From NCBI GenBank assembly GCA_030603665.1, contig JAUVXJ010000004.1:62001-126000 (forward strand): 64,000 nucleotides of DNA, in the 5' to 3' direction. Both the position numbers and the translations under genes were made by a program. Positions 21,303 through 58,353 of the stretch are shown in pieces. The notes beneath the pieces were generated by a model. That model was not told the origin of the DNA, ran no database searches, and saw only the letters and a list, made by a program, of their open reading frames with translations. The first letter of the stretch is position 1. Each line of letters opens with the position of its first letter. Source of the DNA: Chloroflexota bacterium (lineage in GTDB: Bacteria; Chloroflexota; Anaerolineae; UBA7937; B3-Chlor).

Positions 21303-22244
21303 TTGATCAAGGTATCGTCTGGAACATTGGGTGTACTGGGATTGGTGGAAACCCATCTTGATGCCCCCCCGACCACTGCATATCTGATGGTGGGGGGGCG
21401 TTGTCGTCGTGACTGTGCCTTCTGTGCTCAGGCCAGAAGCAGCAAGGCCTCGGCCGCTGCCCTATCCAGGGTCAGTTGGCCGTCGTGGGACGAGAATGAG
21501 GTTCTTGATGCCGTGGAGCAGGCGCACGCGGACGGAAGGATACAGCGCTGCTGTCTGCAGGTCACCGTGGGTCCTGGATCACTGGCTCAGGTCAGGACGA
21601 TTGTCACTCGACTGGCACCCCACCTGCCGATCAGCGCGTCCTTGGTGGCAAACGTCGCTCAGGTGGGGGAACTGCTGGAGTTGGGCGTGGAAAGAGTGGG
21701 ACTGAGCCTCGACGCGGCAAACGAGGAGGCGTATCGACGGGTGAAGGGTGGCGACCTGGACCGCTCGCTTGCAGTGATCGGTGAGGCGGCGCGGCGGTAT
21801 CCTGGTCGGATAACCACCCACCTGATGGTCGGACTGGGGGAGACCGAGGAAGAGATAGTACGCATGATGGCGCTTCTCCTGGATGGGGGAGTGATGCCCG
21901 CGCTCTTCGCCTTCACGCCCATCCGAGGGACCGCTCTGGAGGGCGGCTCTCCACCACTTCTGGACAGTTACCGCCGACTCCAGGTGTCCCGGCAGCTGCT
22001 CCTGGAGGGACTGTGCACGTCAGACGACCTCTCCTACTCGAAGCAGGGGCGAATCTCGTCCCTTGGCCTTCCGAGGAGCGAACTGGAGCAAGTCCTCGCC
22101 GATGGCAAGGCCTTCCAAACATCAGGCTGCCCCGGCTGTAACCGTCCGTACTACAACGAACCACCGAGGGGACCGCTGTACAACTACCCCCGTCCACTGA
22201 CCGGCGCGGAGGTGAGAGACGCTTTGGCCGGACTGCTATGGTAG
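21303..22244 (+). CDS. Radical SAM protein, biotin-synthase-like (possibly LipS2-like)
   Basis: 313-residue radical SAM enzyme. The [4Fe-4S]/SAM motif is CRRDCAFC (C-x3-C-x2-C). The core looks like the biotin/lipoyl synthase group: SASLVANVAQVGELLELGVE, GLGETEEEIVRMM and FAFTPIRGTAL. It ends in a second Cys pair, SGCPGCNRPYYNEPP. This C-terminal CPxCN region is reminiscent of LipS2, one half of the split lipoyl synthase LipS1/LipS2, but no LipS1 partner lies nearby, so this is a suggestion only. The start is TTG at 21303 with GGGAG upstream. It is probably co-transcribed with the DedA gene. Confidence 0.78.
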   Translation: MIKVSSGTLGVLGLVETHLDAPPTTAYLMVGGRCRRDCAFCAQARSSKASAAALSRVSWPSWDENEVLDAVEQAHADGRIQRCCLQVTVGPGSLAQVRTIVTRLAPHLPISASLVANVAQVGELLELGVERVGLSLDAANEEAYRRVKGGDLDRSLAVIGEAARRYPGRITTHLMVGLGETEEEIVRMMALLLDGGVMPALFAFTPIRGTALEGGSPPLLDSYRRLQVSRQLLLEGLCTSDDLSYSKQGRISSLGLPRSELEQVLADGKAFQTSGCPGCNRPYYNEPPRGPLYNYPRPLTGAEVRDALAGLLW

Positions 22245-22322: not shown

Positions 22323-22418
22323 GGGGGTGGTAGAGACCCGGTGGCCTCCGCGGTCTTCAAAACCGTTGATGGGTAGCGACGAGCTAGCCATGGTGGGTTC
22401 GACTCCCATCCACTCCCG
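22323..22418 (+). tRNA. selC: Selenocysteine tRNA, anticodon UCA
   Basis: 96-nt tRNA folding by eye as bacterial tRNA-Sec. The 8-bp acceptor is GGGGGTGG (22323-22330) with CCACTCCC (22410-22417), including one G-U pair, and the discriminator is G. The anticodon arm is GCGGT-CTTCAAA-ACCGT with UCA at 22357-22359. A long variable arm pairs 22369-22377 with 22383-22391, eight of nine pairs with one G-G mismatch. The T-arm is GTGGG-TTCGACT-CCCAT. The 8+5 acceptor/T-stem stack and a six-position D stem (one A-C mismatch) distinguish it from tRNA-Ser. CCA is not encoded. It would be charged with Ser and converted to Sec by SelA or an equivalent. No selA, selB or selD is in the window. Confidence 0.93.
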
Positions 22419-22484
22419 CTGTTATCCTCCGTTTGCGCCGCTTCCGATATCCACTGCCAATCCCTGGTGCCTGGATCGACGTGC

Positions 22485-24306: not shown

Positions 24307-24683
24307 CGGTTTGCACCTCCCACGGTCTGATAATGGCCCACGCCGCACTGACGGCACGCGCGGATCGACTATGGAGTAGGGAAACCACCAGTGCCGGTGC
24401 CACGTTACTTGTACCACGTGCGGGCTGTCGAAAACTGCCAGCCCTACTGTCAGGGACTGCCCATCTTGTCCCTCAGCGCGCAACGACCTACCAACAACTG
24501 TCAGGAACTGTCAAGGTGTGCCAGCGGCGCAGCTACCTTGGATGCAGTGCTGTGATACGGCACTCCACTGAGTGTGGTTGGATTCCCGCGGGTCTCTTTC
24601 ACCCCTCGACAGGGTTGCGCTATAATGAGCCTGGGCGAATCGATTGCTCGCTAGCGCGCTGTTTCAGAGTGGAGGGACGTTCA
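24307..24683 (+). other. Divergent intergenic region with repeated ACTGTCAGG-type words
   Basis: 377 bases without a gene. It contains several copies of related words (ACTGTCAGGGACTG and ACTGTCAGGAACTGTC near 24440-24515) that could be operator half-sites. A TATAAT at 24621-24626 lacks a strong -35 and is a possible -10 for the AIR-synthase-like gene. No known riboswitch is recognised. Confidence 0.4.
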
Positions 24684-25712
24684 GTGGGTTCAGTGGGGAC
24701 GAGGCTCCCAGTAGGAAAGCTGCCGACAAGACTCTTGGAGCGCCTGCTCGACGAGTATCGACTCGAGGACGAGCGTGTGGTGCTGGGGGCGAGGATCGGC
24801 GAGGACGCGGCTGTGTTGGACATGGGAGACAGGTACCTGGTGGCCAAGACCGATCCCATCACCTTCGCCACCGACCAGATCGGCTGGTACGCCGTCCACG
24901 TGAACGCCAACGATCTAGTCACCACGGGTGCCGTACCTCTGTGGTTCCTGGCGACGGTTCTTTTGCCCGAGTTGGGCAGCGATGAGGCTATGGTTGAGGA
25001 GATACTTCGGCAGATGCATGCTGCCTGCAGTGAATTGGGTATCTCGCTGGTCGGCGGCCATACGGAGATCACATGTGGCCTGGACCGCCCGATCGTAGTC
25101 GGCCAGATGCTGGGGGAGGTGGCGAAAGAGAGACTGGTGACTTCAGGTGGTGCCAGGGTTGGAGACTCCGTCGTGCTGACAAAAGGCATAGCCATCGAAG
25201 GCACCGCCATCATCGGTCGGGAGAGAGAGGCGGATCTGCACGAACGTGGCTACAGTCGCGACTTCATACTACGCTGCCAGGCTTATCTCCACACGCCGGG
25301 GATAAGCGTCTTCCGTGAGGCCAGGCTTGCCAGTCAGGATTTCGACGTACACGCCATGCATGATCCCACTGAGGGAGGTTTGGCGATGGGCCTGCGTGAA
25401 CTAGCGCAGGCATCCCAGGTGGGGTTGATGGTGCAAGAGGAACGGATCGAGGTCCTCCCGGAATGCCGGCGCCTTTGTGAGGAGTTCGGCCTGGACCCGT
25501 TGGGCACGATCGCCTCCGGTGCACTGCTCCTTTCTTTGTCCTCAGAGGACGCAGATGACTTGGTCAGTGTCCTTGGGTCCGAGCAGATCCCGGCGGCGGT
25601 CATTGCGTGCGTTGTGCCGAAGGAGGAAGGTATACGGGTGGAGAGTCGCGGGCGAACGAAAGATCTTCCCCAGTTTCCACGAGACGAGATAGCGAGGCTG
25701 TTTGCCCGATAG
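24684..25712 (+). CDS. AIR-synthase-family (HypE/PurM/ThiL-fold) protein
   Basis: 342-residue member of the PurM/HypE/ThiL/SelD ATP-binding superfamily. Characteristic segments are GARIGEDAAVLDMGDRYLVAKTDP, HVNANDLVTTGAVPLW, ISLVGGHTEIT and MHDPTEGGLAMGLRELA. It is not a normal SelD, because the N-terminal Gly-rich loop with catalytic Cys/Sec and Lys is absent. It is closest in feel to the 'AIR synthase-related' HypE-like proteins found apart from hydrogenase genes. The GTG at 24684 follows GGAGGG by 7 bases. The TPR gene follows 21 bases after the stop, so the two are an operon. Substrate unknown. Confidence 0.8.
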   Translation: MGSVGTRLPVGKLPTRLLERLLDEYRLEDERVVLGARIGEDAAVLDMGDRYLVAKTDPITFATDQIGWYAVHVNANDLVTTGAVPLWFLATVLLPELGSDEAMVEEILRQMHAACSELGISLVGGHTEITCGLDRPIVVGQMLGEVAKERLVTSGGARVGDSVVLTKGIAIEGTAIIGREREADLHERGYSRDFILRCQAYLHTPGISVFREARLASQDFDVHAMHDPTEGGLAMGLRELAQASQVGLMVQEERIEVLPECRRLCEEFGLDPLGTIASGALLLSLSSEDADDLVSVLGSEQIPAAVIACVVPKEEGIRVESRGRTKDLPQFPRDEIARLFAR

Positions 25713-55309: not shown

Positions 55310-55447
55310 ATGCGCGACGCAGCAATGATGGCCTGGGCAAGAGGCATGGAACGCCGCAGGGGTCGGCAAACCTGCGACCTCTATGCTGGTGGACGGGTAG
55401 CGGGGTTGCCGCACTGCAATAAGGAAGCGAGGGGAGTCCCAGTATGA
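55310..55447 (+). CDS. Candidate 45-residue leader or precursor peptide (uncertain)
   Basis: Open frame of 45 codons starting MRDAAMMAWARGMERRRG and ending GRVAGLPHCNKEARGVPV, with its TGA overlapping the ATG of the radical SAM/SPASM gene (ATGA). It contains Cys, Tyr and a Gly-rich stretch. No ribosome site is seen in front of its ATG. It could be chance. If real, the position suits a coupled leader or a RiPP precursor for the downstream PqqD-domain maturase. No known precursor family is recognised. Confidence 0.2.
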   Translation: MRDAAMMAWARGMERRRGRQTCDLYAGGRVAGLPHCNKEARGVPV

Positions 55448-56814
55448 GCGTTTGGCAATCTTTGAAGGACACATTCTTTCCTGCAGTGCCCGAGCCTTTG
55501 AGCAAGGGGATGTTCCACTACATGACTCCGGATGGCGCCGAGGAGCGGTTCCGCGTGCATCTGCGCGTGGAGGGTGACGGAGACGGCATCCTGGTCATCA
55601 ACGCATCCAAGGTCCTGCATCTGAATCAGACGGCTACCGAGCATGCCAAGCTGCTCATCGAGGGAAGGGACACAAACTCGGCGGTCAAAGAGCTGAGGAG
55701 ACGATACAAAGTGCCGGCAGACACAGCGCGTGAGGACTACGAACACCTCAGGGAAACGATCCTCACTCTTGCCAGCACCGACGATGTCTGCCCCATTTCC
55801 TATCTGGACGTGCAGAGGATCGAGCCCTTTGACACGCCGGTTTCGGCTCCATACCGTATGGACCTGGCCCTCACTTACAGGTGCAATGCGGACTGTGGCC
55901 ACTGCTACGTGGGCCGTCCGCGGGACATGGAGAGCCTCAGCAGACAAGAGTGGAAGCAGGTCATCGAGAAGCTGTGGGATATCGGCGTGCCGCATGTGGT
56001 GTTCACCGGGGGGGAGGCGACTGTGTACCCCGACTTGGCGGAGTTGGTTCGGCACGCGGAGGACGTGGGACTGATCGCTGGATTGCTGACCAATGGAATC
56101 AAGCTGGCGGACGAGGCCTATCTTGAGGGGTTGGTGGTAGCGGGTCTGGACCACATACAGATCACCTTGGAATCCGACGACGAGGAAATCCACAACCGAA
56201 TGGTGGGGGCGCAGGCCTGGAAACAGACCGTCCAGGGCATCAAGAACGCAGTCGCCACGGACGTCTATACGATCACCAACACCACGCTCACCACTCTCAA
56301 CGCCCCTCAGATCGAGAAGACCATAGACTTCCTGAAGGATCTGGGCATTGAGACCTTCGCCTGCAACAGTCTGATCTATAGTGGGAAGGGGCCGTCCAGC
56401 GGCATCGGGATCCCCGAGACAGAGTTGGAGGGTCTCATGGTCAGGGTGCGCGACAAGGCCATTGCGAAGGGCATGAGGCTGATCTGGTACACGCCGACAC
56501 AGTACTGCGAGTTAAATCCCGTGGAACTTGAGCTGGGAGCCAAGTTCTGCACCGCAGCCAGGTACAACATGTGCGTCGAGCCGAACGGAGATGTAATCCC
56601 CTGCCAGAGTTACTTCTCGAGCCTGGGGAACATACTGCGGGACGACTGGGACTCCATCTGGAATCATGCGGATGCGGTGAGCATGAGGGACAGGGACTGG
56701 GTGATGGAGAAGTGTCGTACCTGCGATGATCTCCCGTTGTGTGGCGGCGGATGTCCCTTATACCTGCAAAACGAGGGTACCCTCTGCGTTGAGAGCAGCT
56801 CCACCGCAGTTTAG
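55444..56814 (+). CDS. Radical SAM/SPASM maturase with N-terminal PqqD-like domain
   Basis: 456-residue enzyme. An N-terminal PqqD-like (RiPP-recognition) region of ~110 residues includes ILVINASKVLHLNQTATE and the repeat-turn AVKELRRRYKVPADTA. The radical SAM motif is CNADCGHC in LTYRCNADCGHCYVGRP. The SPASM C-terminal domain has many Cys: FCTAARYNMCVEPNGDVIPC, CRTCDDLPLCGGGC. Such enzymes typically modify a peptide or protein. The clear PqqD-like part suggests a peptide partner, not found with certainty. It is followed by a methyltransferase and the selenoprotein. Confidence 0.85.
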   Translation: MSVWQSLKDTFFPAVPEPLSKGMFHYMTPDGAEERFRVHLRVEGDGDGILVINASKVLHLNQTATEHAKLLIEGRDTNSAVKELRRRYKVPADTAREDYEHLRETILTLASTDDVCPISYLDVQRIEPFDTPVSAPYRMDLALTYRCNADCGHCYVGRPRDMESLSRQEWKQVIEKLWDIGVPHVVFTGGEATVYPDLAELVRHAEDVGLIAGLLTNGIKLADEAYLEGLVVAGLDHIQITLESDDEEIHNRMVGAQAWKQTVQGIKNAVATDVYTITNTTLTTLNAPQIEKTIDFLKDLGIETFACNSLIYSGKGPSSGIGIPETELEGLMVRVRDKAIAKGMRLIWYTPTQYCELNPVELELGAKFCTAARYNMCVEPNGDVIPCQSYFSSLGNILRDDWDSIWNHADAVSMRDRDWVMEKCRTCDDLPLCGGGCPLYLQNEGTLCVESSSTAV

Positions 56815-56883
56815 ACCTGGGCCAGCCACCTCGCCTACGGCCAGCGGGTGGGTGCAGCTGCGCAACTGGATGGAGCGTCAAGG

Positions 56884-57645
56884 GTGAGTCTCACCGTCGA
56901 GCAATGGCATCAGCAGTTCCTGCGTCAGGCTCGCTGGACTCAAGGCATACGCTCTCATCTCTATCGCCAAGCGGGACTCCTGGGCGCAAGAACGGTCCTG
57001 GATGTAGGTTGCGGCACAGGGGCAGTCACTGCAGAGCTGTCGCAGAGGACCGGAGGGAGGGTGGTTGGCCTGGATCTGGATCCAGCGATGATCGATTTTG
57101 CAGCTGGCTGGGTTCCGGATGTGGAGTGGATTGTGGGAGATGCTCACAGTCTACCTCTCGGAGATGGGAGCTTCGATCTGGTGCTGTGCAGCTTCCTTCT
57201 GCTCTGGGTTGCCAAGCCAGAAGTGGCGGTGCGGGAGATGTCACGTGTAGTTAGGAAGGGGGGCGCGGTCCTCGCTACCACAGAGCCTGATTACGGAGGG
57301 CGAATAGACTATCCAGAGGAGATCAGGATGGGTCCGCTGATGGAGGAATCGCTACGTCGCGACGGAGCGGTCCCTAGGATCGGCCGTCGCGTGAAGGCCC
57401 TCTTCTCGTCGGCCGGGCTGGAAGCACAGTCGGGGATTATCGGCTCGATGTGGGACGACCGGCAATTGAGAGAGGAGTTTGATGCAGAGTGGGGTTTCAT
57501 ATTCCAGACTCTCAGCAACGTCGCCAGCGAAACACAGTTGGAGAGCTATCATGATAAGGCGTGGAGGGCTCTGCAGCGAGGAGAGCGTCTGGTCTTCATG
57601 CCCCATTTCTGGGCTCTGGGCAAGAAGCCGGCCGCGAGTCCATAG
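56884..57645 (+). CDS. Class I SAM-dependent methyltransferase
   Basis: 253-residue methyltransferase. Motif I VLDVGCGTGAVTAELS, DLDPAMIDFA, GDAHSLPLGDGSFDLVLCSF, and RVVRKGGAVLATTEPDYGG (motif V region). The start at GTG 56884 is favoured by a GGAG about 8 bases upstream. A longer frame to 56848 runs through the space after the maturase. Its substrate is not known. The gene order suggests it acts with the maturase upstream or the oxidoreductase downstream. Confidence 0.85.
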   Translation: MSLTVEQWHQQFLRQARWTQGIRSHLYRQAGLLGARTVLDVGCGTGAVTAELSQRTGGRVVGLDLDPAMIDFAAGWVPDVEWIVGDAHSLPLGDGSFDLVLCSFLLLWVAKPEVAVREMSRVVRKGGAVLATTEPDYGGRIDYPEEIRMGPLMEESLRRDGAVPRIGRRVKALFSSAGLEAQSGIIGSMWDDRQLREEFDAEWGFIFQTLSNVASETQLESYHDKAWRALQRGERLVFMPHFWALGKKPAASP

Positions 57646-57681
57646 TGGGGAACCCCGTTTCCTTTGGAAGGAGGAATAGCC

Positions 57682-58353
57682 GTGCCCATGCTGAAGGATG
57701 AGGACAGGGAAGAAGTCCGTAAGCAGCTGATGGGACTCGCGAGCCCGGTGCGGCTGGTTATGTTCACTCAGGACTTCGAGTGCAATTTCTGCACTGAGAC
57801 GCGGGAGTTGGTGGAGGAGATAGGTTCTCTCTCCGACGAGGTGGATGCGGTGATCTATGACTTCGCCGCGGACAGTGACGAGGTCGACCGCTACGGGATA
57901 GACAAGATCCCGGCCATCGCCGTCGTGGGCGAGAAAGACTACGGAGTGCGTTTCTACGGGATACCTTCGGGCTACGAGTTCGTCTCCTTGATCGAGGCCA
58001 TCAAGATGGTCGCTTCGGGCCAGTCTGGGTTGTCCGATGCTACAAGGGAAGCACTAGCACAACTAGACGAGCCGGTCCACTTCCAGGTGTTTGTCACTCC
58101 AACTTGACCATACTGCCCCGGCACGGTCGTGCTGACACATAAGATGGCGACGGAGAGTGACCAGGTCACGGCGGACATGGTTGAGGCCACCGAGTTCCCC
58201 CAGTTGGCCATCAATTATCAAGTTCGCGGCGTGCCGCGCTCCGTAATCAACGAGGTTCACTTCGTGGACGGAATGGTGCCCGAACCACTGATGCTTCAGA
58301 GTGTATTGAGTGCTCTCGGCAAAGATGAGGAGGGCGCGGGTCCTCCGGAGTGA
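57682..58353 (+). CDS. Selenoprotein: two-domain thioredoxin-fold disulfide oxidoreductase with a U-P-Y-C active site
   Basis: Read through an in-frame TGA (58105-58107) as Sec142, the frame gives 223 residues, the normal size for the PDO-like glutaredoxin/thioredoxin family (about 226). The N-terminal half (residues ~1-110) has TQDFECNFCTETRELVEE with C34-x-x-C37. The C-terminal half has VFVTPT-U-PYC-PGTVVLTHK with U142-x-x-C145, then the cis-Pro loop RGVPRSVINEVHFVDG. Residues after the TGA are in the same frame and fully conserved in type, so the two halves belong together. The GTG at 57682 has AAGGAGG 7 bases upstream. Sec would lower the pKa and raise reactivity. See the adjacent SECIS hairpin and selC in this window. 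A chance Cys-to-stop change is the alternative. Confidence 0.87.
58119..58134 (+). promoter_or_regulatory. Bacterial SECIS-like hairpin
   Basis: Six-base-pair stem CGGCAC/GTGCTG (58119-58124 with 58129-58134; one G-U pair) closing a GGUC tetraloop. The loop begins 17 nt after the UGA. Known bacterial SECIS elements have a short apical loop with a G in the first two positions, 16-37 nt after UGA. Here G-G fits. Confidence 0.75.

Follow-up and report, generated by a model that had tools for sequence, protein, structure and literature searches.

A further member of the selenocysteine form of the two-domain protein disulfide oxidoreductase, predicted in a Chloroflexota bacterium

Introduction

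The protein disulfide oxidoreductases (PDOs) of Pyrococcus furiosus (1a8l), P. horikoshii (1j08), Aquifex (2ywm, 2ayt) and Aeropyrum (2hls) are built of two thioredoxin folds and have two active sites. According to excerpts of PMC7278568, archaeal PDOs receive electrons from thioredoxin reductase (TrxR) and pass them on, for example to a peroxiredoxin in Saccharolobus solfataricus, and the pairing of PDO with TrxR also appears in excerpts of PMC6211008. The NCBIfam family TIGR02187 (PDO_seleno_TRX) bears the name 'protein disulfide oxidoreductase'. The initial annotation of the DNA studied here was aware of no described selenocysteine (Sec) form of this two-domain PDO-type family; such forms are already present in the literature. 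A Sec form of TIGR02187 with the motif UxxC is listed in the portions of PMC9312934 and PMC13188914 that were available, and the citing literature, as far as its excerpts go, credits it to Kryukov and Gladyshev 2004. Two Sec members, from Carboxydothermus hydrogenoformans and Symbiobacterium thermophilum, appear in excerpts of PMC1794560 (2006), four Sec sequences from Asgard archaea in those of PMC11227280, and a TGA cluster called 'Glutaredoxin-like', with CHY_0740, in those of PMC1914089.

In this work we describe a PDO gene with an in-frame TGA from a Chloroflexota bacterium. The listed Sec forms share with it the family and the type of motif, with Sec first in CxxC, but they come from C. 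hydrogenoformans, Symbiobacterium and Asgard archaea; the likeness to a listed Sec PDO (ABB15282.1) is one of described family and motif, as distinct from direct alignment. Among the papers found on Chloroflexota together with selenoprotein and selenocysteine, none was about the TIGR02187 family as judged by title or the start of the abstract. The protein is a well-supported further Sec member of a family whose Sec form is already known, and it adds a Sec PDO from Chloroflexota to the members in the literature.

Results

The gene and its in-frame TGA

The window, which here means the whole stretch of 64,000 nucleotides that was analysed, contains two open frames in the same phase, separated by one TGA. 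The initial annotation had joined them into a protein of 223 residues; translation gave exactly these coordinates, and the dN/dS values on both sides of the TGA support a single gene. Its features are as follows:

57670..57674, + strand: GGAGG, a putative ribosome-binding site, 7 nt upstream of the GTG
57682..58353, + strand: predicted selenoprotein PDO gene, 223 residues, GTG start, terminal TGA at 58351-58353 (translation, TIGR02187 match, dN/dS)
57781..57792, + strand: first active site, C34-N-F-C37, in the N-terminal domain (translation; C34 and C37 invariant in a 42-sequence alignment)
58105..58107, + strand: in-frame TGA, predicted Sec142 (sequence, translation, codon comparison)
58105..58116, + strand: second active site, U142-P-Y-C145, matching TPT-CPYC in the alignment to P. 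furiosus PDO (1a8l)

The TGA at codon 142 is the sole interruption of the translated frame, it stands in the context VTPT-U-PYCPG, and the gene is present in the genome as a single copy. Is the part behind the TGA still maintained as protein? We compared the gene pairwise with three relatives (L011, L012 and L013), which are 70-76% identical to it and have TGA at the same codon. The dN/dS after the TGA was 0.109, 0.114 and 0.154, respectively, and before the TGA it was 0.099, 0.098 and 0.178; the likeness of the two sets indicates that the downstream part evolves as protein. The simplest alternative would be a true stop in a truncated or decaying gene, from which only the first domain of 141 residues is made. 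The standard code does end the frame there, and the protein record P0052, 97% identical to ours, breaks off at this residue and was predicted as a 141-residue protein; one homologous locus, L027, even looks like such a case, as it has no hairpin after the TGA and its assembly gave no match to SelA. Nevertheless, the equal dN/dS on the two sides speaks against a true stop, as does TGA at this same codon in 65 of 170 homologous loci without any TAA or TAG, which decay would not yield, and we consider this explanation very unlikely. Gene callers truncate such genes at UGA, and P0052 provides an example. Could a TGC or TGT have been read as TGA by a sequencing or assembly error? The window does belong to a draft assembly made up of 32 contigs, but the TGA in the three relatives and the break of P0052 at the same residue make such a slip even less probable than a true stop.

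Family, fold and active sites

That the protein belongs to the two-domain PDO family, as had been proposed, is borne out by sequence and by fold. The joined protein matched TIGR02187 with 268.4 bits (cut-off 185), residues 6-210 lying on positions 2-208/209 of the model. The best relative with a solved structure was the P. furiosus PDO 1a8l (152.9 bits, residues 3-212), in which TPT-CPYCP lies under TPT-U-PYCP, so that the place of UPYC in our protein is taken by CPYC. A structure predicted with Cys modelled at residue 142 (pLDDT 89.9, pTM 0.88) was superimposed on 1a8l by Foldseek over its full length (TM 0.90/0.89, rmsd 1.6). The model comprises two thioredoxin folds with one site of the CxxC type apiece, CNFC at 34-37 and UPYC at 142-145. 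The first of these is intact, as originally stated, with both C34 and C37 in the translation. The PDO structures named in the Introduction all match the protein over its full length, in sequence and in fold.

Two other groups of proteins resemble this PDO in part. The N-terminal domain of AhpF (1zyn, 1hyu, 4o5q, 5h29) has the same double thioredoxin fold (TMq 0.72-0.84), but the PDO differs from AhpF in that the flavoprotein part is absent. Identity with AhpF was rejected: the protein reached 73.7 of 502.9 bits with TIGR03140 and 108.9 of 687.65 with TIGR03143, and it has 223 residues compared with the 515 positions of the AhpF model. In selenoprotein thioredoxins and glutaredoxins (UxxC), as tabulated in the literature, Sec replaces the N-terminal Cys of CxxC just as it does here. 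These selenoproteins are single-domain, whereas the PDO has two domains.

Codon 142 in homologous loci

The initial annotation placed the TGA at the first Cys of the second CPYC site and expected homologues with Cys at 142 as well as others with an in-frame TGA. Both kinds were found. At codon 142 the 170 homologous loci, our own included, have TGC in 66, TGT in 39 (together 105 with Cys) and TGA in 65; TAA, TAG and other sense codons were each found in none of the 170. The share of TGA is not a natural frequency, as the set was enriched for it: it consists of our own locus (L001), 80 loci out of 142 confirmed ones, 29 further best matches (L091-L119) and 60 fetched stretches, 47 of which were chosen for a flagged TGA. 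The flag marked TGA at codon 142 in 45 of these and a terminal stop in two (L127, L155), and the remaining 13 stretches had no stop. The other matches without a stop from a draw of 400 genomes of the same phylum were left out, and so was a fragment (G197). In the 80 loci chosen without regard to TGA, 10 had TGA at codon 142 and one (L017) at codon 145. The own-phylum draw gave a PDO match in 122 of the 400 genomes and TGA at codon 142 in 54 (G197 left out), and Sec forms of the PDO are accordingly common in Chloroflexota.

Among the 170 loci, the in-frame stops that could be placed before residue 214 fall on residue 142 in 65 and on residue 145 in one (L017), and this concentration at a single residue indicates that the placement of the TGA is more than chance. 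One TAG in L179 lies in an alignment gap and is unplaced; the match itself has no stop in residues 5-213. L017 (653-1282) reads CPY[TGA], with TGT at 142 and TGA in the place of the second Cys. We considered a CxxU variant and did not adopt it: L017 is a single case with no SelA match in its assembly and a stem score of only 8, counted from codon 142 and not from codon 145, and the copy may be broken or the sequence wrong. L027 (3667-4296) is the only TGA locus that falls in neither of the hairpin classes described below, and it too has no SelA match in its assembly; real loss of function in a broken copy, or else an error, is the likelier explanation, and the locus forms a helpful contrast to the remaining TGA loci.

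Some TGA loci differ from ours in other respects. Four (L164, L166, L167 and L168) have lost both Cys of the first site and kept the Sec site, and from their sequences these proteins are possibly one-site enzymes. Several genomes have two copies of the gene: two Sec forms in G284 (L143, L149), and one Cys and one Sec form each in G209 (L102, L150) and G105 (L103, L151).

Selenocysteine machinery

The genes for selenocysteine synthesis and insertion, selA, selB and selD, whose lack would have spoken against the initial annotation, are all three present in the genome, together with a tRNA-Sec in the window itself:

22323..22419, + strand: tRNA-Sec with anticodon UCA (ARAGORN; Rfam RF01852, 70.3 bits), 36 kb from the PDO gene

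SelA matched with 459 bits and SelB with 306.7 bits, or 346.7 when its neighbour piece is included (cut-off 242.25). SelD (357.9 bits; G000:C31:215905-216840) itself has one in-frame TGA, and the same is true of each of two FdhA-like (formate dehydrogenase) matches on contig 9 (L192 and L196, 823.2 and 182.5 bits). UGA reassignment exists in some bacterial lineages, and one may ask if UGA could be a sense codon, e.g. for Trp or Gly, in the whole of this genome. This is the least probable of the alternatives, and we give it hardly any weight: TGA serves as an ordinary stop in 4 of the 13 family-matched open reading frames of the window and in the PDO gene as well, the aligned residue in other loci is Cys and never Trp or Gly, and the full Sec machinery is present along with genes of Sec type.

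Directly upstream of the tRNA-Sec lies a gene for a LipS2-type lipoyl synthase (21303-22244; 329.9 bits, cut-off 270). An AIR-synthase-like protein encoded at 24333-25712 has 459 residues, about 130 of them ahead of the domain match. It was tried as a candidate for SelD and rejected, as it stayed below the cut-offs for HypE, SelD and ThiL and SelD was found elsewhere in the genome.

Does the machinery also distinguish Sec from Cys forms across genomes? SelA was found at E <= 0.001 in 330 of the 400 genomes of the own-phylum draw, and because it is so common there it separates the two forms poorly: it was present in 52 of 54 TGA genomes and in 60 of 67 others (p 0.30); here G197 was left out, G349 with its E of 9.7e-4 was taken as lacking SelA, and G329 (2.3e-9) and G342 (5.8e-24) were taken as having it. 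In 50 genomes out of the 80 named-locus ones the figures were 9 of 10 with TGA and 25 of 39 with Cys (p 0.15), where the genome of L017 was in neither group and both G441 (8.7e-4) and G448 (6.3e-5) were scored as lacking SelA. With both samples pooled, p was 0.006. The two TGA genomes of the draw without SelA are G029 (88% completeness) and G212 (76%); in G029 a tRNA-Sec is present (69.7 bits). Over the 400 genomes the search for tRNA-Sec gave no discrimination: every one of them had a match at E <= 0.001, and in 344 the match exceeded the family cut-off.

A predicted SECIS-like hairpin after the UGA

Behind the UGA of the PDO gene, after a spacer of 11 nt, a short stem-loop is predicted:

58119..58134, + strand: predicted SECIS-like hairpin, stem CGGCAC/GUGCUG of 6 pairs; loop GGUC at 58125-58128, starting 17 nt past the UGA

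Taken alone, this hairpin was not significant, either by shuffling (MFE z -0.23; the native fold was equalled in 75 of 200 shuffles) or under a synonymous-codon null (p 0.097), and the weight of the hairpin evidence therefore lies in the comparison across loci and not in the single sequence. A general scan for the energy of the best hairpin found TGA and Cys loci alike (65 v 105, p 0.63). It was replaced by a scan of stem scores and a count of two hairpin classes, both of which were chosen after seeing the sequences. The score for a perfect stem near the place of the hairpin averaged 14.8 in the 65 TGA and 11.1 in the 105 Cys loci (p 5.8e-11), and scores of at least 12 were reached by 63 of 65 TGA loci, 49 of 105 Cys loci and 28% of the 6747 windows taken from other parts of the TGA genes. 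Class A, defined by GU at +19/+20 and a stem 5 or more pairs long, comprises 26 TGA loci including our own, and class B, with AG at +22/+23 and a stem of at least 4 pairs, comprises 38. One or the other class was assigned to 64 of 65 TGA loci compared with 12 of 105 Cys loci (Fisher 3.6e-33, a value that ignores kinship and rests on post hoc classes). The GU at the loop position is by itself no sign, as it occurs in 28 of 65 TGA and 91 of 105 Cys loci; given GU, a class-A stem is present in 26 of 28 TGA loci but in only 7 of 91 Cys loci. Within class A, from three to five kinds of standard pair occur at several positions of the stem.

Other UGAs of the same genome are followed by similar structures. 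The hairpin after the UGA of SelD, GGCGCA-GGUCG-UGCGCC, has GGUC in its loop, and the loops of both FdhA hairpins contain GGUCU and hence the GGUC found in the PDO gene. Judged by these letters, the PDO UGA appears to have a SECIS-like signal of the kind that follows the UGAs of SelD and FdhA.

Exchange of Sec and Cys

How often have Sec and Cys replaced each other in this family? A quick FastTree tree was calculated from 169 of the 170 loci (one was under the length limit) after masking codon 142 together with the twelve residues behind it; long branches were flagged. On this tree the Sec/Cys label at codon 142 needs 20 changes, in either direction, compared with a mean of 51.5 for shuffled labels, and at least 15 of the changes are forced by well-supported branches. 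The residues after codon 142 also differ between the forms. Ala at +7 is found in 37 of 65 Sec but in 10 of 105 Cys forms, and at +8 Arg or Ser occupies 51 of 65 Sec forms, whereas in Cys forms Arg is found in 14 of 105 and Ser is outside the six commonest residues. The Ala at +7 and the Arg or Ser at +8 of the Sec forms match what the letters of the class-B hairpin demand.

Discussion

The PDO gene very probably represents the selenoprotein form of TIGR02187, its UGA likely being decoded as Sec142, the residue that opens the UPYC site. This reading draws on several kinds of sequence evidence, i.e. the frame that is open on both sides of the TGA, the family match, the restriction of codon 142 to TGA and Cys codons, the Sec machinery of the genome and the hairpin with GGUC in its loop. 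SelB carrying Sec-tRNA(UCA) would bind this hairpin and insert Sec142.

What might the enzyme do? One TrxR over the cut-off (384.6 bits, cut-off 343.45) and one below it (322.3) are present in the genome. By analogy with the PDOs described, thioredoxin reductase would reduce the PDO, electrons would move between the CNFC and UPYC sites, the selenolate of Sec142 would attack the disulfides of client proteins and C145 would resolve the resulting selenenyl-sulfide. The most likely route would thus lead from TrxR over the PDO to the disulfide of a client, Sec142 being the attacking and C145 the resolving residue, where the electron donor and the clients are both assigned by analogy. The net action would presumably be that of a reductase rather than an isomerase.

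The distribution of the two forms raises further questions. Is it possible that codon 142 works as a switch, which in the bacteria compared here has turned from one residue to the other at least 15 times, with each Sec form on one of two hairpin designs, the loop starting 17-18 or 22 nt past the UGA? The second design would be accompanied by altered residues in the helix of the active site, so that the RNA signal shapes the enzyme. We lean slightly towards this view. If it is true, the PDO offers a natural series for the joint gain and loss of a Sec codon and its signal. The mixed tree of Sec and Cys forms lends itself to testing how Sec is gained and lost, and the pattern of exchange may be worth a proper study.

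Lastly, we looked at the neighbours of the PDO gene. Glycosyltransferases lie downstream of it, and two genes precede it:

55444..56814, + strand: radical SAM/SPASM protein with a PqqD-like N-terminal part, the L012 counterpart being 83% identical
56848..57645, + strand: SAM-dependent methyltransferase, the L012 counterpart being 68% identical

L012 has the gene order just described, and proteins of the radical SAM/SPASM and methyltransferase types are likewise encoded upstream of the PDO gene in L013. As far as these sequences indicate, what close relatives have in common here is a conserved order, as distinct from a shared function.
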